Assembly: GCF_002156705.1 (NCBI RefSeq) | Contig: NZ_CP019893.1 | Span: 1,302,001-1,366,000 of the forward strand | DNA from: Natrarchaeobaculum aegyptiacum | Lineage (GTDB): Archaea > Halobacteriota > Halobacteria > Halobacteriales > Natrialbaceae | Direction of reading: 5' to 3' | DNA length: 64,000 bases | Shown here: positions 36,821 to 45,720 of the stretch, in pieces | Layout: each line of letters opens with the position of its first letter | How positions within the stretch are numbered: the first letter of the stretch is position 1 | The notes under the pieces: generated by a model | What the model was told of the DNA's origin: nothing | Database searches by the model: none | What the model saw: only the letters and a program-made list of their open reading frames with translations | Position numbers and translations under genes: made by a program

Positions 36821-38155
36821 ATGACGACTGAACGAACCGACGATTCGATGGCAGGGGGTATGGACAGACGAACGATTCTGAAAGCGGTCGGTGGGTCCGC
36901 AATCGCGGTCGCACTCGCCGGCTGTACGGAACTGCTCGAGGACGAAGACGACGCGATCGAAGACGCGGAAGTACCGGACGAACCGATCGAAGCCGGACTC
37001 CAGACGTTCCTCGAGGGGGCGCCGGCGGTACTCGGCGTCCAGGCACAGTACGGCGCGGAGACGGCCGTTCGCCGGATCAACGACAACGACGGCATCGCCG
37101 GTCGCCAGATCGACCTCGACGTAATCGAGGAGGGCGAAGAGGCTCTCGAGAACTACCAGCAGTTCGTCAACGACGGGAAGGAAGTCACGTTCGGGCCGAT
37201 CTCGAGCGGGAACCACGAGGCGATGGTCCCCGAGATCAACGCTCAGGGCGTGATCAACGTCGCGACTGACGGGACGGTGACGACGCTGTACGAGGAAGAC
37301 CATCCGCCCGACGAGAACACCTACTCGTTCCGGTTCCAGAACCACGACGTGATGGAGGCGCTCGCGGCGGCCGTCGAGGCCGTCGAAGTGCTCGGTGCCG
37401 ACGAGATCGATACCTACGCAGGGATCAACCCCGGCTACGCGTTCGGGTTCGACGAACACGACGTCTTCTCTGCAGGTATCGAGCAACTCACTGGAGCCGA
37501 GGAGGTGTACGACGGGTTCCCCGACCTCGGCACCGACGACATGTCGACGCACATCGAGGCGGTCAACAGCGAGGAACCGGACGTACTCTTCTCGAGTTGC
37601 TGGGGTGGCGACGCGACGCTGTTGCTCGAACAGGGCCACGGTGCCGGCATGTTCGACAACATCGAGTTGATGGTCGGGCCGGTACTGTACGGCTCCGCGA
37701 ACGACCTGAGTGAGGGGCTCGTCGACGGTCCGATCCGCTCGGGGTCGCGGAACTTCTACTGGGACGAACCTGACACCGACCGCTGGTCGCCCGCGGCTGC
37801 CCTCTTCGAGGAGGTCCAGGACGAGTACGGCGTCGTGCCGACGGCACACTTCATGAGCGGCTACGGGGCAGTCACCGCGTGGGCGACCGCTGCGGAGAAA
37901 GCCGTCAGGCCCCTGGGTCGGTGGCCCGAACAGGACGAACTCGCCGAGGTGCTCACCGGCCACGGCTTCCACACACCCGCCGGCTACCACACCATGGCGA
38001 ACGATCACCAGTGTTACTCGAACGCTCACTTCGGCGAGCTGGGCTGGTCCGACGACCTCGACGCAGCGGTCATCGAAAACGTGAACGTCTACGCCCCCGA
38101 GGAGGTCTCGCCACCCCAGGGAGAGGTCTCACTCGAGTGGATCGGGGGCTGGTGA
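36821..38155 (+). CDS. livJ: Liv-type ABC substrate-binding lipoprotein
   Basis: The solute-binding component of a branched-chain-type (Liv) importer; it captures substrate outside the cell and delivers it to LivHM. The 444-residue protein carries a twin-arginine signal (R16 R17) and a lipobox with Cys35 (VALAGC), so it is a Tat-exported, lipid-anchored protein. The mature part has the periplasmic-binding type I fold (AQYGAETAVRRINDNDGIAG; VTFGPISSGNHEAMVPEIN). The first gene of the liv operon, it is followed by permeases and ATPases on the same strand. Liv-family binding proteins take amino acids, amides, urea or organic acids; neighbouring catabolic genes suggest a hydroxy/keto acid. Confidence 0.9.
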   Translation: MTTERTDDSMAGGMDRRTILKAVGGSAIAVALAGCTELLEDEDDAIEDAEVPDEPIEAGLQTFLEGAPAVLGVQAQYGAETAVRRINDNDGIAGRQIDLDVIEEGEEALENYQQFVNDGKEVTFGPISSGNHEAMVPEINAQGVINVATDGTVTTLYEEDHPPDENTYSFRFQNHDVMEALAAAVEAVEVLGADEIDTYAGINPGYAFGFDEHDVFSAGIEQLTGAEEVYDGFPDLGTDDMSTHIEAVNSEEPDVLFSSCWGGDATLLLEQGHGAGMFDNIELMVGPVLYGSANDLSEGLVDGPIRSGSRNFYWDEPDTDRWSPAAALFEEVQDEYGVVPTAHFMSGYGAVTAWATAAEKAVRPLGRWPEQDELAEVLTGHGFHTPAGYHTMANDHQCYSNAHFGELGWSDDLDAAVIENVNVYAPEEVSPPQGEVSLEWIGGW

Positions 38156-38235
38156 GCAGCCGGGGCACACGCGCTATTCAACCGCACACATGATTCAGTT
38201 ACACGCAGAAGAAAGCTGCCAGAGCGCGTTACAGC

Positions 38236-38242
38236 GGAGGTG
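38236..38242 (+). promoter_or_regulatory. Shine-Dalgarno site of livH
   Basis: GGAGGTG lies 6 nt before the GTG start of livH and matches the 16S rRNA anti-SD complement. It fixes this GTG as the start and indicates internal translation initiation within the polycistronic liv mRNA. Most first genes here appear leaderless instead. Confidence 0.75.
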
Positions 38243-38248
38243 TGAACC

Positions 38249-39181
38249 GTGATCGAGTCGTTCGCAGTTCACACGCTCAACGGGCTCTGGTACGGCGTAA
38301 TCCTGTTTATGATCGCATCGGGGCTGACGATCATCTTCGGGGTGCTGGGTATCCTGAACCTGGCCCACGGCGAACTGTACGCACTCGGCGCGTTCGTCGT
38401 GTTCAGCGTCGTCGGATACGCGACGGGGTTCGTCGCCAGTCCAGACGATCCGGTTTCGGCGGTGATCTTCGGCGTCGTCGTTCTCGTCGCGGCGCTCATC
38501 GCCGCTACCATCTTGCTCCCGGTCGGTGCGTTCATCGAGGCCGTCTTCGTCAGGCCGATCTACGACCGGGACGAGGTCTACCAGCTCCTGTTGACCTACG
38601 CGTTGTTGTTGATCTTCATCGACGTGATGAAGTTCGGCTGGGGGACCTCGCCGCTCGACGCCGGCACCTACCGCGGGCTCAACCAGATCCCCACGACCGA
38701 GATAGTCGGCTTCGGGTACCCGAGCTACAACATCATCGCGATGGTCGTCGGCGTGGCGGTGTTCGCCTGGCTCGTCTGGTTCTTCGATCGGTCGAAGACC
38801 GGACGGATCATCCGGGCGACCGCCATCAACCGCGATATGGCGACGGCGATCGGCGTCAGCACGGACCGCACCTTCACGCTCGTCTTCGCGATGGGGGCGT
38901 TCTTCGCCGGCTTCGGCGGTGCGATGGTCAGCATCGGGCCCCAGACGGCCTTCCTCGAGATGGGGCTCGACCCGCTGGTGCTCTCGTTCGTCGTCATCGT
39001 CGTCGGCGGGCTCGGGAGCCTGAAAGGGGCGTTCGTGGGCGCGTTACTCGTCGGGGTTATCAGTCGGTGGGCGATCTGGCTGTGGCCGGCCGTCGAACTG
39101 GCCGCGCCCTTCGCCGTGATGTTGCTCATCCTGCTCCTGAAACCCGAAGGACTGTTCGGCACGTGGGGTGAGATCGAATGA
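38249..39181 (+). CDS. livH: Liv-type ABC transporter permease (LivH)
   Basis: One of two membrane permeases of the Liv importer, 310 residues with about 8 TM helices. The sequence begins MIESFAVHTLNGLWYGVIL and includes the conserved LNLAHGELYALGAF stretch (about residues 37-52), the GLTIIFGVLGILNLAHGE motif and GGLGSLKGAFVGALLVG near 250, which contacts the ATPase. The start is a GTG with a strong SD. livM begins 4 nt before its stop (ATGA overlap), so translation is coupled. It lies in the cytoplasmic membrane. Confidence 0.93.
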   Translation: MIESFAVHTLNGLWYGVILFMIASGLTIIFGVLGILNLAHGELYALGAFVVFSVVGYATGFVASPDDPVSAVIFGVVVLVAALIAATILLPVGAFIEAVFVRPIYDRDEVYQLLLTYALLLIFIDVMKFGWGTSPLDAGTYRGLNQIPTTEIVGFGYPSYNIIAMVVGVAVFAWLVWFFDRSKTGRIIRATAINRDMATAIGVSTDRTFTLVFAMGAFFAGFGGAMVSIGPQTAFLEMGLDPLVLSFVVIVVGGLGSLKGAFVGALLVGVISRWAIWLWPAVELAAPFAVMLLILLLKPEGLFGTWGEIE

Positions 39182-40329
39182 GTCGATTCTCACCGCTCGA
39201 GGAGCGCGACGGCAAGACCGTCGTTCGCGTCCCGTTCACGAGAGGACTCACGCTGACGAGCGGTCAGACTGCCCTCGCGCTCGTCGGCCTCGTCGTCCTG
39301 TTCGGGCTGCCGTTTCTCGCCGGACTCGTCGGTCTCTCGTGGGGCCGGCTGTTCAGGGGACTCCTGTTCGGGATGGCCGCCGTCGGCCTGAACCTGCTAC
39401 TGCGCCATACCGAACTCGTCTCGTTCGGTCACGCCGCGTTCTTCGGCGGCGGCGCGTACGCGGTGGCCGTGATGGCGGCCCATCTCGAGGTCTCCGAGGG
39501 GATCCTGTTGCTCCTGTCGGCCGTGATCGTCGGCACGCTGCTGGCGGCGGTTATCGGCTACTTCGTCGCGGGCTACGTCGACATCTACTTCGCCCTGCTG
39601 ACGCTCGCGTTCAACGCGGTCATCTTCGCGACCGTCTTCCGGAGCGCGTTCTTCAACTACAACGATGGGCTCGCGGTTCGGGTCGGCGGCGACAACCCGA
39701 CGCTGTTCGGACTCGCCTGGACCGACCTCGGCTACGACCTCGTGTTGTACTACACGACGATCGTTCTCATGATCGTCATGCTGGTGTTGATGTGGCGGCT
39801 CATCAACTCGCCGTTCGGCCGGGCGCTCGACGCGATCGGACAGGACAGAACCCGTGCCCGGTTCATCGGCATCCCGGTCGAGCGCTACGTCTGGTACTCG
39901 TTTACCATCTCCGGGCTATACGGCGCGTTCGCCGGCGGTGTCTACGCACTCCAGCGACTCCACGTCCAGCCCGAACCGACCCTCTACGTCTTCGTCTCCG
40001 GTGAGATCCTGTTCATGGCGATCCTCGGTGGGTTCACCACCCTCGTCGGACCACTCATCGGTGGCGTCCTGCTGGTCTACCTGCTCGAGGCCACCCGGTT
40101 TTCGTTCTACTACTACCACGCGCCCATCGGCATCATCCTGCTGGCGATCGTCCTGTTCATGCCGAAAGGAATCATGGGCTCGTTGCCGGACTTCTTTGCA
40201 GGGCTCAGGCGACGGGTGGCTGATCCCGGACGTCTCGGCGACGACGTCCGTTCGATCCGGTCGATGGTTCGTCAGAGCCTGACTCGCGCGACGACCACCG
40301 TTCGAATTCTGGTATTCGGGGTGAAATGA
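39178..40329 (+). CDS. livM: Liv-type ABC transporter permease (LivM)
   Basis: The second permease, 383 residues. A ~45-residue N-terminal region precedes about 9 TM helices. Conserved features include MAAVGLNLLLRHTELVSFGHAAFFGGGAYA (about residues 62-90) and FTISGLYGAFAGGVYALQR (about 240-260). GGFTTLVGPLIGGVLLVYLLE follows near 290. It pairs with LivH to form the translocation pore. It overlaps livH by 4 nt; livG starts 2 nt after its stop. The C-terminal tail beyond the last TM (about 50 residues) is basic and amphipathic. Confidence 0.92.
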   Translation: MSRFSPLEERDGKTVVRVPFTRGLTLTSGQTALALVGLVVLFGLPFLAGLVGLSWGRLFRGLLFGMAAVGLNLLLRHTELVSFGHAAFFGGGAYAVAVMAAHLEVSEGILLLLSAVIVGTLLAAVIGYFVAGYVDIYFALLTLAFNAVIFATVFRSAFFNYNDGLAVRVGGDNPTLFGLAWTDLGYDLVLYYTTIVLMIVMLVLMWRLINSPFGRALDAIGQDRTRARFIGIPVERYVWYSFTISGLYGAFAGGVYALQRLHVQPEPTLYVFVSGEILFMAILGGFTTLVGPLIGGVLLVYLLEATRFSFYYYHAPIGIILLAIVLFMPKGIMGSLPDFFAGLRRRVADPGRLGDDVRSIRSMVRQSLTRATTTVRILVFGVK

Positions 40330-40330
40330 G

Positions 40331-41107
40331 ATGCTCGAAGCACGAAACCTGCGAAAGGAGTTCGGAGAACTGCGCGCGACCGACGACGTCTCCCTCCAGT
40401 TCGGGACGACGCCGGGCGAGATGGTGTTCATCGTCGGCCCGAACGGGGCTGGCAAGACCACGCTCGTCAACCTCCTCACGGGGTTGCTCGAGCCCGATCA
40501 GGGATCGGTCGTCGTTCACGAAGCGAACGGTGACGGAACGACCGTCGAACGGGATATCACCAACGTCGACCCCGAACGGCGGGTCAACGAGGGGCTCGTC
40601 AGGAGCTTCCAGATCGTCCACGTCTTCGAGGAGATGACGGTTCGAGAGAACGTCCGCGTCGCCGTCCTCTCACGGTACGACAGGTTGCTGAACGTTCGCT
40701 CTCGCGACGATCAACACGAGGACGTCGAAGCCACGGTCGACGACTTGCTCGCGCAATTCCGACTCGAAGAGACCCAGCACGAGGTGGCCGAGACGCTGCC
40801 ACACGGCGACCGGAAGCTGCTGGACGTGGCGATGTCGTTCGGCCTCGATCCGGAGTACCTGTTGCTCGACGAGCCGACCTCGGGGGTGGCGACCCGCGAG
40901 AAAGAGTACGTCATCGAGACGATCGTCGAGGCCAGCGAGGCACGGGACGTGACGACCGTGACGATCGAACACGACATGGACCTCGTGAAAGCGTACGCCG
41001 ATCGGCTGGTGGTGCTCGTCGAGGGGCGCGTCTTCCGCGAGGGTGAACCGACCCTGCTCGAGACCGACGACGAACTTCGCCGCGTCCTGCTGGGGGTGAC
41101 CGAATGA
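40331..41107 (+). CDS. livG: Liv-type ABC transporter ATP-binding protein (LivG)
   Basis: The first ATPase subunit, 258 residues. Walker A is GPNGAGKTT (about residues 37-45), Walker B LLLDEPTSG (about 175-183) and the switch His lies in TIEHDMDLV. The ABC signature is divergent, LPHGDRKLLD instead of LSGGQQ, as is common in LivG. A ~70-residue insert between the Walker A and signature, ending in the ETQHEVAETLP region, is typical of the family. It starts 2 nt after livM and overlaps livF by 4 nt (ATGA), so the cassette is translated as a tight polycistron. Confidence 0.93.
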   Translation: MLEARNLRKEFGELRATDDVSLQFGTTPGEMVFIVGPNGAGKTTLVNLLTGLLEPDQGSVVVHEANGDGTTVERDITNVDPERRVNEGLVRSFQIVHVFEEMTVRENVRVAVLSRYDRLLNVRSRDDQHEDVEATVDDLLAQFRLEETQHEVAETLPHGDRKLLDVAMSFGLDPEYLLLDEPTSGVATREKEYVIETIVEASEARDVTTVTIEHDMDLVKAYADRLVVLVEGRVFREGEPTLLETDDELRRVLLGVTE

Positions 41108-41835
41108 GCGCTCCGCTGCTCGAGGTGACGGACCTGTACGCCGAGGTCGAGGGCTTCGAGGTCACGCACGGAGTCGATCTCGAGGTCCACGAGGGCGAGG
41201 CCGTCGCCCTCGTCGGTCGTAACGGCGCGGGCAAGACGTCGACGTTCCGTTCGATCATGGGATTGACGCCCGTCTCGAACGGCTCGATCCGGTTCGACGG
41301 CGAGGAGTTGCTCGACCTTCGGCCGGAGGTGATCCCCAAACGCGGCATCGGCTACCAGCCCGAGGGCCGGGACCTCTTTACGGGTATGACCGTCGAGGAG
41401 AACTTCCGGCTGCCCATCTGGACCTCCGGCGACGCTCGCAGCATCGACGACGAGGACGCCGTCGTCGAGGACATCTTCGACCTCTTCGGGGAACTCGATC
41501 ACCGCCGCGATGCCGAAGTACAGAACTTGAGCGGCGGACAGGGGAAGATGACCGCCATCGGCCGCGCGCTCGCGCTCCGGCCCGACCTCCTCATCCTCGA
41601 CGAACCGCTCGAGGGACTCGCCCCGGTCGTCGTCGAGAACGTGAAATCGTACATCCACGAGATCATCGACCGTGACATCTCGGTGCTGATCGCCGAGTCG
41701 AACGCGAGTCACGTTCCCGAGATCGTCGACCGGATGTACGTGATCGAACGCGGCGAGATCGTCGACAGCGGCGATCCCGAGGTGCTCGCCGAGGACGAAG
41801 AGATCCAGCTGCTCATGCAGGGCGGCGGCGAGTAG
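41104..41835 (+). CDS. livF: Liv-type ABC transporter ATP-binding protein (LivF)
   Basis: The second ATPase, 243 residues. Walker A GRNGAGKTS (about residues 39-47), signature LSGGQGKM (about 141-148) and Walker B LLILDEPLEGL (about 161-171) are present. The H-loop region ISVLIAESNASHV lacks the usual switch His at the expected position, as in many LivF proteins, where it is Glu-Gln/Asn-type. It completes livJHMGF. After its stop, 74 nt separate it from the convergent Bat-type regulator gene. Confidence 0.93.
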   Translation: MSAPLLEVTDLYAEVEGFEVTHGVDLEVHEGEAVALVGRNGAGKTSTFRSIMGLTPVSNGSIRFDGEELLDLRPEVIPKRGIGYQPEGRDLFTGMTVEENFRLPIWTSGDARSIDDEDAVVEDIFDLFGELDHRRDAEVQNLSGGQGKMTAIGRALALRPDLLILDEPLEGLAPVVVENVKSYIHEIIDRDISVLIAESNASHVPEIVDRMYVIERGEIVDSGDPEVLAEDEEIQLLMQGGGE

Positions 41836-41909
41836 TCGACTACCGCTCGCTGGCACGTTCTCGGCGATCCGCCCGTCGAAAACCAGGTGTCGACGACGCG
41901 ATTGGTTGC

Positions 41910-42623
41910 TTACGTTAACTCGTCGTCCAGTTCGTTCAGTGCCGACAGCGCACCCTTGAGGATCTTGCGCTCGCTCCGTCGAAGGTTCATCGAGACGGCC
42001 GTCTTCGAGACGTCGAAGTGGTCGGCGAGGTCGTCGAGGGTCGTCGCCCGGGGCGTCTCGTAGTACCCACGGCGGGACGCAACCTCGAAGGTCTCCCGTT
42101 CGGTCTCGGTCAGGGACCGACAGCCTTCGAGCAACTGCATCGCGCTGTCTGCGTTCTCGAGGAGGTCGAACAGTGTCGTCGCACCGAAGTGATCGCGGTT
42201 CTCGACCTGGTAGTCGTTGTGGCGCTCGAGTTCCGCGAGCGCGCGGTCTTCGGCCTCGTCGTCGTCGAAACCGACGTGCCACTGCTCGCGGCCGTCTTCG
42301 ATCTGGAAGGGGCCGGTGATATAGCCGTCGTTTTGCTGAATCGTCTCCATCGCGTTCGTCTGTTCGATCGTGGTCCCGATCTGGGCGACGTTCTCGCGCT
42401 TCGAGAGGATGTAGCAGTCGTTCATGTTCGGGTGGTTCCGAAGCACGCGCAACCCCTCCTCGAGTGCCCCCCTGTCGACCCCTTTCGCGATGAGTCGCGT
42501 CTCGAGTTGCTCGTCGCTCGTGTCCAGTTGCCACTGGACCGCCGAAAACGCGACGTCGACGTCGTCCGTCGTGTCGATGAACGGACAGTCGTACTGTCGC
42601 ATGTCGATGTCGAGGTCGATCAT
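41910..42623 (-). CDS. Bat-type HTH (HTH_10) transcriptional regulator
   Basis: A 237-residue haloarchaeal transcription factor. The N-terminal ~150 residues form a sensor-like alpha/beta domain of unknown ligand. The C-terminal bacterio-opsin-activator-type HTH (about 165-225: LTETERETFEVASRRGYYETPRATTLDDLADHFDVSKTAVSMNLRRSERKILKG) has the characteristic Glu-Thr-Phe, Tyr-Tyr-x-x-Pro-Arg and helix-turn-helix signature. It lies between the liv operon and the bdh/synthetase genes, transcribed toward liv and divergently from bdh, and is the obvious candidate regulator of the cassette, as activator or repressor. ATGs at 42623 and 42602 are both possible starts. Confidence 0.88.
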   Translation of the reverse strand: MIDLDIDMRQYDCPFIDTTDDVDVAFSAVQWQLDTSDEQLETRLIAKGVDRGALEEGLRVLRNHPNMNDCYILSKRENVAQIGTTIEQTNAMETIQQNDGYITGPFQIEDGREQWHVGFDDDEAEDRALAELERHNDYQVENRDHFGATTLFDLLENADSAMQLLEGCRSLTETERETFEVASRRGYYETPRATTLDDLADHFDVSKTAVSMNLRRSERKILKGALSALNELDDELT

Positions 42624-42650
42624 CAGTGGTAAGAAATGACATGCAATGAC

Positions 42651-42670
42651 TTAATATTAATCCAATTAAT
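42651..42670. promoter_or_regulatory. AT-rich divergent control region (regulator/bdh)
   Basis: TTAATATTAATCCAATTAAT contains ATTAAT-CCA-ATTAAT (42656-42670), a 6+3+6 inverted repeat 33 nt upstream of the Bat-type gene start (42623). It is positioned to act as its TATA/operator. The bdh side has TGTTAAC at 42780-42786 and a GTTTTAG TATA-like box near 42792-42798, about 40 nt before the bdh ATG. Confidence 0.4.
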
Positions 42671-42833
42671 CATGTTGGTCCGGGCGGCATCGAACCATCC
42701 GGGGCCGACGGCCGCGCTCGAGCCGACGACGTGGGGCCCCAACGCGTGGCCAGACTACCCGGTGAGGCGTGGTTGTACATGTTAACGGCCGAGTTTTAGC
42801 GCGTCACGCGTGAACGTATTTCGTGTGTCGACG

Positions 42834-43691
42834 ATGTCTCAGGACCAGGTCACGCCGCCGACAGTCTCACGTGAATCGATCCACCAGTTCGACGACGACG
42901 CGTTCACGCCGGAACACGTCTGCCTCGTGACCGGCGCAGGATCGGGAATCGGCCGCGCAACAGCACTCGCCGCAGCCGGGAACGGCCTCACGGTCGCCGC
43001 GACGGATATCGACGAGGACGGTCTCGAGGGCACGGTCGAGCGGGGCGACGACCTCGACCTCGAGGGCGAGATTCACTCGCTTCCCGGCGACCTGACGGAC
43101 GATTCGGACCTCGAGGCGGTCGTCGAGCAGGCGGCCGGCCTGGGTACGATCCGATACCTCGCGAACGTCGCCGGGATGCAACACATCGCTCCGATCGAGG
43201 AGTTCCCGATGGACACCTACGACCGGATGCACCGGGTGATGCTCCGGGCTCCACTGTACCTCTCGAAGCTGTGCATTCCCCACTTCCGGGAGACCGACGA
43301 CGGGCAGGGCTGCGTCGGCAACATGGCCTCGGTCCACGGCCACTACGTTACGAGCGACAAGGTCGCCTACAACGTCTCGAAATTCGGTCTGCGGGGGCTG
43401 ACCCAGTCGATCGCCGCCGAGGGCGACGGGCTGATCCGCGCGTTCTCGATCAGCACCGGCTACGTGAAGACACCGCTCGTGCTGGACCAGCTCGAGGACA
43501 CCGCCGAACAACGCGGCATCTCCGTCCAGGAAGTGATCGAGGACGTCATGCTCGGCCAGTCACGGGTGACCGAGATGATGGAACCGATCGACGTGGCGAA
43601 CCTCTTCCTGCTCGGCTTTTCCGACCTGGGTCGGCACCTCGACGGTGGCGACCTGCTGTTTGATGGCGGTATGACCCAAACGTACGAGTGA
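42834..43691 (+). CDS. D-3-hydroxybutyrate dehydrogenase (SDR family)
   Basis: Oxidises D-3-hydroxybutyrate to acetoacetate with NAD+. The 285-residue SDR has the nucleotide motif TGAGSGIG (33-40), NVAG (111-114) and the Ser-Tyr-Lys site S166, Y179, K183. The known substrate-binding set of 3-hydroxybutyrate dehydrogenases (Pseudomonas fragi numbering Gln94, His144, Lys152, Gln196) is matched by Q116 (AGMQHIAPIEEFP), H168, K176 and Q219 (YVKTPLVLDQL) with consistent spacing, so the assignment is strong. The ATG at 42834 follows a short leader; the acyl-CoA synthetase starts 10 nt after its stop. The chain differs from bacterial relatives by an extended N-terminus. Confidence 0.9.
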   Translation: MSQDQVTPPTVSRESIHQFDDDAFTPEHVCLVTGAGSGIGRATALAAAGNGLTVAATDIDEDGLEGTVERGDDLDLEGEIHSLPGDLTDDSDLEAVVEQAAGLGTIRYLANVAGMQHIAPIEEFPMDTYDRMHRVMLRAPLYLSKLCIPHFRETDDGQGCVGNMASVHGHYVTSDKVAYNVSKFGLRGLTQSIAAEGDGLIRAFSISTGYVKTPLVLDQLEDTAEQRGISVQEVIEDVMLGQSRVTEMMEPIDVANLFLLGFSDLGRHLDGGDLLFDGGMTQTYE

Positions 43692-43701
43692 GAGTGAAAC
43701 C

Positions 43702-45720
43702 ATGACTGAGAATCCCACGCTCGAGGGCGTCGACGAGATCGTCCACGAACCGAGCGAGGCGTTCGTCGACTCGACGAACGTCGCCGACTTCATGGCGACC
43801 CACGACATCGACGACTACGACGCGTTGATCGAGCGCACCACGACCGACGTGGAGGGCGTCGAAGCGTCAGGTGTCGACTGGTTCTGGGACGAAGTGGTCG
43901 ACTACCTCGGCCTCGAGTTTTACGAAGAGTACGACGACGTGCGAGACGACAGTGAGGGACCCCAGTTTACGGACTGGTACCCCGGCGGCAAGCTCAACCT
44001 CGCGCACAACCTCGTCGACCGTCACGCCGCCCTCGAGTCCGAACGCCGGAACACAGTCGCCACCATCTGGGAGGGCGAAGACGGCGAGGTGCGCGAACTT
44101 ACCTACCACGAACTGCATCGGCAGGCCAATCAGGTAGCTAACGCGCTCGAGCAGCGAGGCATCGAGACCGGCGACACCGTCGGGCTCTACATGCCGATGG
44201 TCCCCGAGGTCGTCTCGATTCTCTACGGCTGTTTCAAGGTCGGTGCGATCGCCGTCCCGATCTTCTCGGGGTTCGGCGTCGACGCTGCCGCAACCCGCAT
44301 TGCCGACGCCGAGTGTTCGGTGCTCTTTACCGGCGACGGCTTCCTGCGACGGGGTGATCCGGTCTTCCTCAAATCCGCCGGCGACGACGCCATCGAGGAG
44401 GCAGGGCACGTCGAGCACACGATCGTTTTCGACCGGTTAGGATCGAGCAACCGGAAAAGCGAACACGAGATTCCCTGGATCGACGACCGCGACGAGTGGT
44501 GGGCCGACGCCGTCGAGAGCGCTGACGATGACTACGAGACCAAATCGCTCGACTCGAGCCAGGAGTCGATGCTCCTCTATTCCTCCGGAACGACCGGCAA
44601 ACCGAAAGGGATCGTCCACACCCACGCCGGCGTCCAGGTCCAGTGTGCCAAGGAACTGTACTTCGGATTCGACCTCAAACCCTCGGATCGGTTCTGCTGG
44701 GTTTCCGATATCGGCTGGATGATGGGCCCCTGGACCCTGATCGGGACCCACACCTTCGGCGGCACGGTCTTCATGTACGAAGGCGCACCCGATCACCCAC
44801 AGCCCGATCGGTTCTGGGAGATGATCGATCGTCACAGGCTGACGCAGTTCGGCATCTCGCCCACGGCAATTCGAGCCCTTCGTGAGCACGGCGACCAGTG
44901 GCTCGAGGGCCACGATCTCTCCTCGCTGCGAATCCTCGGTTCGACGGGCGAACCCTGGGACCCCGAATCCTGGCAGTGGTTCTACGAGCACGTCGGCGGC
45001 GGCGAGTGTCCGATCATCAACATCTCCGGCGGCACCGAGATCTGTGGCTGCTTCCTCATGCCGATGCCGATCCAGTCGCTCAAGCCCTGTACCCTCGGCG
45101 GACCCGGGCTCGGGATGAACATCGACATCGTCGATCACGACGGAAATTCCGTCAAAGACGACCACGAGCGCGGCTTCCTGGTCGCGCGCGACTCCTGTCC
45201 CTCGATGACCAAATCGCTCTGGAGCGGCGACGAGCGCTACCTCGAGGAGTACTGGTCGACCTTCGAGGACATGTGGGACCATGGCGACTGGGCCCAGCAA
45301 GACGAGGACGGCTTCTGGTTCCTCCACGGTCGGGCCGACGACGCCCTGAACGTCGCCGGCCGCAAGGTCGGTCCCGCCGAGGTCGAGGGTGCGCTCATCG
45401 ACCACCCCGCAGTGACGCAGGCCGCCGCCGTCGGTGCGCCCGACGACACCACCGGCACGGCCGTCGTCGCCTACGTCGTCCTCGAGCCTGGCCACGACGA
45501 AACCGACGACCTCCGCGCGGAACTGCGAGAGCAGGTCGGCGACGAGCTAGGAAAGCCGTTCCGCCCCCGCGAAATCCTGTTCGTCGACGAGTTCCCCAAG
45601 ACCCAGTCGGGCAAGATCATCCGCCGGGCCATCGAGGCGACGTATACCGGCGAAGACCTCGGGGACATGAGCAGCATCGAGAATCCCGGCGCGCTCGAGG
45701 AACTCGAGGCCGCACGCTGA
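43702..45720 (+). CDS. AMP-forming acyl-CoA synthetase, acetoacetyl-CoA synthetase-like
   Basis: An ANL-superfamily ligase of 672 residues that would activate a carboxylic acid to its CoA thioester using ATP. Motif A3 is [16 protein letters not shown] (about residue 292), the A5 region is [13 protein letters not shown] (about 440-450), the DxxxWxxxGD-type motif is present in [29 protein letters not shown] follows, and the catalytic Lys is in TQSGKIIRR (about 638). The acetyl-CoA-synthetase WWQTE pocket motif is replaced by SGGTE, as in acetoacetyl-CoA synthetases (SGGTD), implying a larger acyl pocket. It is 10 nt downstream of bdh, whose product would be its substrate. Propionate or another short acid cannot be excluded. 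Confidence 0.85.

Follow-up and report, generated by a model that had tools for sequence, protein, structure and literature searches.

The stretch of DNA analysed here (the window) comprises 64,000 nucleotides from Natrarchaeobaculum aegyptiacum (contig NZ_CP019893.1, positions 1,302,001 to 1,366,000), and our subject is a block of eight contiguous genes at window positions 36821-45720, considered as a candidate system for the uptake and breakdown of 3-hydroxybutyrate (3HB), a ketone body and also the unit from which bacterial bioplastic is built. Five genes on the plus strand encode a LivJ-like solute-binding protein of the Peripla_BP_6 family (36821-38155; PF13458, E 7.7e-33), LivH-like (38249-39181; PF02653, E 8.6e-33) and LivM-like (39178-40329; PF02653, E 1.2e-33) permeases, and LivG-like (40331-41107; PF00005, E 5.4e-25) and LivF-like (41104-41835; PF00005, E 3.2e-29) ATP-binding cassette (ABC) ATPases. 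One Peripla_BP_6 protein with two BPD_transp_2 permeases and two ABC ATPases in a single operon is the composition of an HAAT/Liv-type ABC importer, and the reading frames of livH and livM, and of livG and livF, overlap by 4 nt. A divergent transcription regulator follows on the minus strand (41910-42623; PF04967 and PF24279) and then, again on the plus strand, come a short-chain dehydrogenase/reductase (SDR) that is a predicted D-3-hydroxybutyrate dehydrogenase (Bdh; 42834-43691; PF00106/PF13561) and an AMP-forming acyl-CoA synthetase with an acetoacetyl-CoA-ligase-like pocket (43702-45720; PF00501, PF13193 and PF16177). All eight open reading frames are intact and their Pfam domains agree with the contiguous set described in an earlier, sequence-only reading, as does the 10-nt gap between dehydrogenase and synthetase (43692-43701). 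A scan for sigma-70-type promoters, a type unsuited to archaea, gave no match.

The best-scoring NCBIfam family for Bdh is TIGR01963 (3-hydroxybutyrate dehydrogenase) at 188.6 bits, below its 307.05-bit cut-off. The closest solved relatives of Bdh are 3HB dehydrogenases, and it shares 59% identity over 280 residues, together with the same four substrate ligands, with Haloferax mediterranei BdhA. In the 285-residue form starting at 42834, on which our numbering is based (an alternative GTG start lies at 42810), these ligands are Q116, H168, K176 and Q219, equivalent to Gln94, His144, Lys152 and Gln196, exactly as numbered in the sequence-only reading. They are invariant in 127 of 127 rows of the homologue alignment, into which some genomes enter with more than one locus, and so is the catalytic Ser-Tyr-Lys set (S166, Y179 and K183). 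Among the 27 SDR-like loci of the same genome, Bdh is the only one to carry the four ligands; the other readable ones carry at most one (at least L202, L206 and L215 were read in the wrong frame and L219 is truncated, and none of these was counted), which argues that the set in Bdh is not due to chance.

BdhA is reported to convert the 3HB released by the depolymerase PhaZh1 to acetoacetate, and the two are encoded in a bdhA-phaZh1 arrangement (PMC7137286). The BdhA-like protein of H. mediterranei is encoded on plasmid pHME505, directly upstream of a patatin-like protein, and gene order, family and lipase box suggest that this pair is bdhA and phaZh1. A patatin of this family adjoins a Bdh homologue in 14 sampled haloarchaeal loci (directly downstream and on the same strand in 13), with no importer found near any of the 14; the one Bdh-linked patatin that was compared is 75% identical to that of H. 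mediterranei. In a tree built from 81 Bdh rows, the branch containing the patatin-linked ones excludes most of those linked to Liv or to the synthetase, the deep forks being weakly supported. The two arrangements share a homologous dehydrogenase, with acetoacetate as the reported product of BdhA and the predicted product of Bdh, but whereas the dehydrogenase of bdhA-phaZh1 adjoins a granule depolymerase and serves internal polyhydroxyalkanoate (PHA), that of the window adjoins an importer and a CoA ligase. Given the close homology to a characterised enzyme, the pocket residues and the gene context, Bdh is very probably a D-3-hydroxybutyrate dehydrogenase that forms acetoacetate from D-3HB.

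The synthetase is harder to place by family models. It scores about 610 bits with AcsA models (TIGR02188, 609.6 bits, cut-off 724.95) and 430 and 359 bits with acetoacetate ligase models (TIGR01217, 358.6 bits, cut-off 520.9), below the cut-offs of both kinds. Where Salmonella Acs has its acetate-limiting Trp (Trp414, in VDTWWQTETGG), the window's enzyme carries NISGGTE, so that Gly replaces the Trp, and its GWMM motif aligns with the acetoacetate-CoA ligase 4wd1. GWMM and SGGT[ED] are the pocket motifs of acetoacetyl-CoA synthetase (4wd1, TIGR01217), although overall the window's enzyme is closer to the AcsA models. A 42-residue query over the motif (SVSGGTDVCSCF) also had 4wd1 as top match, with E 0.014 for this short query, and the pocket motif is invariant in 47 synthetase rows, in agreement with the acetoacetyl-CoA-synthetase-like pocket noted from the sequence alone. 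Two other ligases of the genome exceed the AcsA cut-off (837 and 794 bits), both with WWQTE. Since the acetate-limiting Trp is replaced while these two ligases exist, acetate is an improbable main substrate, and acetoacetate is our best guess. Because the TIGR01217 cut-off is missed, we liken the enzyme to acetoacetyl-CoA synthetase in its predicted mode of action and do not file it as a member of that family. Elsewhere in the genome, an AMP-ligase-like frame (C1:2892077-2893627; L182) is broken by one in-frame TGA and may be a pseudogene or a frame artefact.

LivJ has an N-terminal RR motif and an AGC lipobox (R16, R17 and C35 do not vary across 24 sequences) and is likely a lipoprotein exported by the twin-arginine translocation (Tat) pathway. 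Of the 11 Peripla_BP_6 loci in the 3.93-Mb genome it is the lowest-scoring against that model, marking it as a divergent member of the family. Its AlphaFold model (predicted local distance difference test score 78.8) is closest to the solved fold 3i45 (Z 39.8), which has nicotinate as ligand; binders of 4-hydroxybenzoate and vanillate come next (Z 38-39) and leucine-type proteins slightly behind (Z 36-37). The model and these folds would suit a carboxylate ligand that has no amino group but are not decisive. By profile comparison LivJ is remote from the solved Leu/Ile/Val-binding proteins (E 1e-10 at best). The acidic position with which leucine-binding proteins hold the amino group lies beyond the end of the HMMER alignments of LivJ, and the other binding proteins of the genome have diverged too far for this comparison.

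The sequence-only reading had regarded Liv importers as known for amino acids, amides and urea. This premise is incomplete: the ligands in solved Liv-type binding proteins include 4-hydroxybenzoate, vanillate, 3-phenylpyruvate and 3-methyl-2-oxopentanoate. Non-amino carboxylates are already among the known ligands of Liv-type proteins, and what is new here is the predicted substrate, not the class of importer. The five-gene architecture and the folds are those of other HAAT/Liv-type systems (LivJHMGF, UrtABCDE and the Rhodopseudomonas aromatic-acid importers), some of which bind such carboxylates, whereas the window's LivJ belongs to a divergent haloarchaeal subfamily with a short hydroxy acid as predicted substrate. 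That the ligand of LivJ would be 3HB itself, and not acetoacetate or some other short-chain acid, is a proposal in which we have less confidence than in the reading of the cluster as a whole. Literature searches on haloarchaeal or Liv-type 3HB importers found no relevant report, which does not prove that none exists.

Conservation of the linkage between importer and enzymes, which the sequence-only reading had named as a check, is borne out across Halobacteria. In a sample of 194 genomes, LivJ orthologues (at least 55% identity) occur in 26, all of which have Bdh. Bdh lies near livJ in 21 of the 26, nine of them from the window's family, eleven from one genus of a second family and one from a third family; the eleven from a single genus limit the independence of this count. 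Among the named genomes, Bdh is present in 21 of 29 LivJ loci and the regulator in 23, some loci being cut by contig ends. Gene orders vary. The liv genes are followed by regulator, Bdh and synthetase in the window, Natrinema, Natronococcus and Halopiger; in Haloarcula the Bdh-synthetase pair is divergent from livJ; in L063 and in Halorubellus (L149) the synthetase is upstream of livJ and Bdh downstream; and further orders occur elsewhere. In L145 the partner of LivJ is a Bdh whose branch contains no other member with an adjoining Liv importer. Genomes of the window's family have Bdh and the synthetase at a constant position near smc, and several of them carry the pair there without liv, which indicates that liv was gained or lost beside it. 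At one locus livF is directly followed by another SDR with 30% identity to Bdh (L060:9791-10612), and Bdh itself lies further on.

Other importers also occur next to Bdh. A second, divergent Liv system (28-43% identical to the window's; Liv2, with the window's type as Liv1) lies near Bdh together with a homologous regulator in L092, L094, L098, L117, L119 and L121. An AMP ligase is present in five of these six loci (not L117) and a thiolase in L092, L094 and L121, with no thiolase match in L098, L117 and L119. In a further version, a sodium symporter and CoA-transferase subunits stand beside Bdh in L070 (Natronomonas pharaonis plasmid PL131), L112 and L114, the latter two also with a thiolase and L114 from the window's own genus; a symporter and a regulator accompany Bdh in L091 and L120. 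The PL131 cluster shares with the window a homologous Bdh, a homologous helix-turn-helix (HTH) regulator and the combination of importer and CoA activation, but its transporter and its activating enzyme are unrelated to those of the window. Homologues of the regulator are linked to the Liv1, Liv2 and symporter versions alike. Such recurrence of acid importer, CoA activation and thiolase around Bdh is the pattern expected of 3HB/acetoacetate catabolism. The regulator itself combines HTH_10 (PF04967, E 5.3e-16) with HVO_2525_N (PF24279), its sole other domain; no PAS or GAF sensory domain was found in the Pfam scan. The earlier label "Bat-family" is right as to the DNA-binding domain and loose as to the rest.

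Taking together the gene content, the conserved residues, the homology of Bdh to BdhA and the conserved linkage, all of which are read from the sequences themselves, we consider it fairly probable that the cluster imports and catabolises 3HB or a close short-chain 3-hydroxy or 3-keto acid. In the mechanism that we infer, LivJ, probably Tat-exported and lipid-anchored, would catch the acid outside the cell, and LivHM and LivGF would bring it in at the expense of ATP. Bdh would then use NAD(P) to oxidise D-3-hydroxybutyrate to acetoacetate, from which the synthetase would form acetoacetyl-CoA at the cost of ATP, and one of four thiolases that score above cut-off, all encoded outside the cluster, would split the latter into two acetyl-CoA; the HTH_10 regulator may control the cluster genes. 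The sequence-only reading had called this chain complete apart from thiolase. Its enzyme steps from 3HB to acetoacetyl-CoA are supported and thiolases exist elsewhere in the genome; uptake of 3HB by LivJ remains the inferred part.

Haloarchaea are known PHA producers, and this genome encodes a PHA synthase and a patatin (C1:2394196-2395149; L220) that is 47% identical to the H. mediterranei patatin beside BdhA. A search of the genome for a further Bdh gave none at 1e-30. An extracellular depolymerase as source of 3HB is unsupported by the PHB-esterase model PF10503, for which the genome has no match; external 3HB would presumably come from other cells. A more specific version of our proposal, plausible and distinctly tentative, is that the window encodes a dedicated, ATP-driven Liv-type importer of D-3-hydroxybutyrate, and that in Halobacteria two distant Liv lineages were recruited to one shared dehydrogenase and one family of regulators, as a modular means of scavenging PHA monomers from other cells.

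Several observations weigh against these proposals. Besides the missed TIGR01217 cut-off, synthetase orthologues occur in 173 of the 194 genomes and Bdh in 102, many genomes with the synthetase lacking Bdh; since it is so much more widespread, the synthetase has roles beyond the cluster and is not dedicated to this pathway. Given the fixed place of the pair near smc, part of the linkage within the window's family is one inherited arrangement. Haloferax elongans and Halomicrococcus have a LivJ orthologue and no Bdh match at 1e-30, and in L069, L073, L074, L148 and L151 LivJ adjoins a different acyl-CoA ligase.

LivJ loci without Bdh often hold another AMP-forming ligase (Lig28 or Lig68-like), and proteins that bind several different carboxylates are among the closest solved folds, as would suit a Liv system that imports short-chain carboxylates more broadly (e.g., butyrate, branched acids or acetoacetate), with 3HB as one of several and activation of the imported acid to a CoA thioester as the shared theme. 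However, a general importer has no need of the Bdh that accompanies LivJ in every LivJ genome of the sample, and we regard this alternative as unlikely. Import of leucine or other amino acids, with Bdh and the synthetase handling acetoacetate from amino-acid breakdown, would agree with the annotation of the family as branched-chain amino-acid transporters, with the end of leucine catabolism in acetoacetate and with the small gap, a few Z units, between leucine-binding proteins and the top structural matches. It is improbable given the remoteness of LivJ from solved Leu/Ile/Val binders and the retention of Bdh in the symporter and CoA-transferase versions; the neighbours examined, most of which were not scanned against families, included no recognised gene of the leucine pathway. 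A third alternative, in which Bdh and the synthetase serve PHA stored inside the cell and liv lies beside them by chance, is very improbable: the PHA synthase, the PhaZh1-like patatin and the coming and going of liv beside a stable pair would fit, but the LivJ-Bdh linkage survives rearrangement in several families, a second branch of Bdh has a separate pairing with LivJ, and unrelated importers replace Liv1 in other clusters.

If the proposed uptake of 3HB is correct, an importer of ordinary architecture would have a new predicted substrate within a conserved catabolic cluster, where the dehydrogenase and the regulator family are kept while the importer (Liv1, Liv2 or sodium symporter) and the CoA activator (ligase or CoA-transferase) are exchanged. 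This would assign functions to several transporters so far annotated by family alone and add short hydroxy acids to the range of Liv-type importers; in the literature that we searched, no account of a PHA monomer being taken up by archaea was found.

Some compared loci have additional content. The second-Liv loci in part also encode an OB-fold/zinc-ribbon protein and a MaoC protein, and the symporter version (L070:4115-9251; L112; L114) consists of a sodium:solute symporter, a small hypothetical protein, two CoA-transferase subunits and Bdh. In L073 (2190-3851), L074, L148 and L151 the AMP-forming ligase Lig28 adjoins LivF at a locus without Bdh. In Natronomonas pharaonis (L069:9032-10911), the LivJ orthologue lies beside a carbon-nitrogen hydrolase and a nitroreductase-like protein, and Bdh is on a plasmid.

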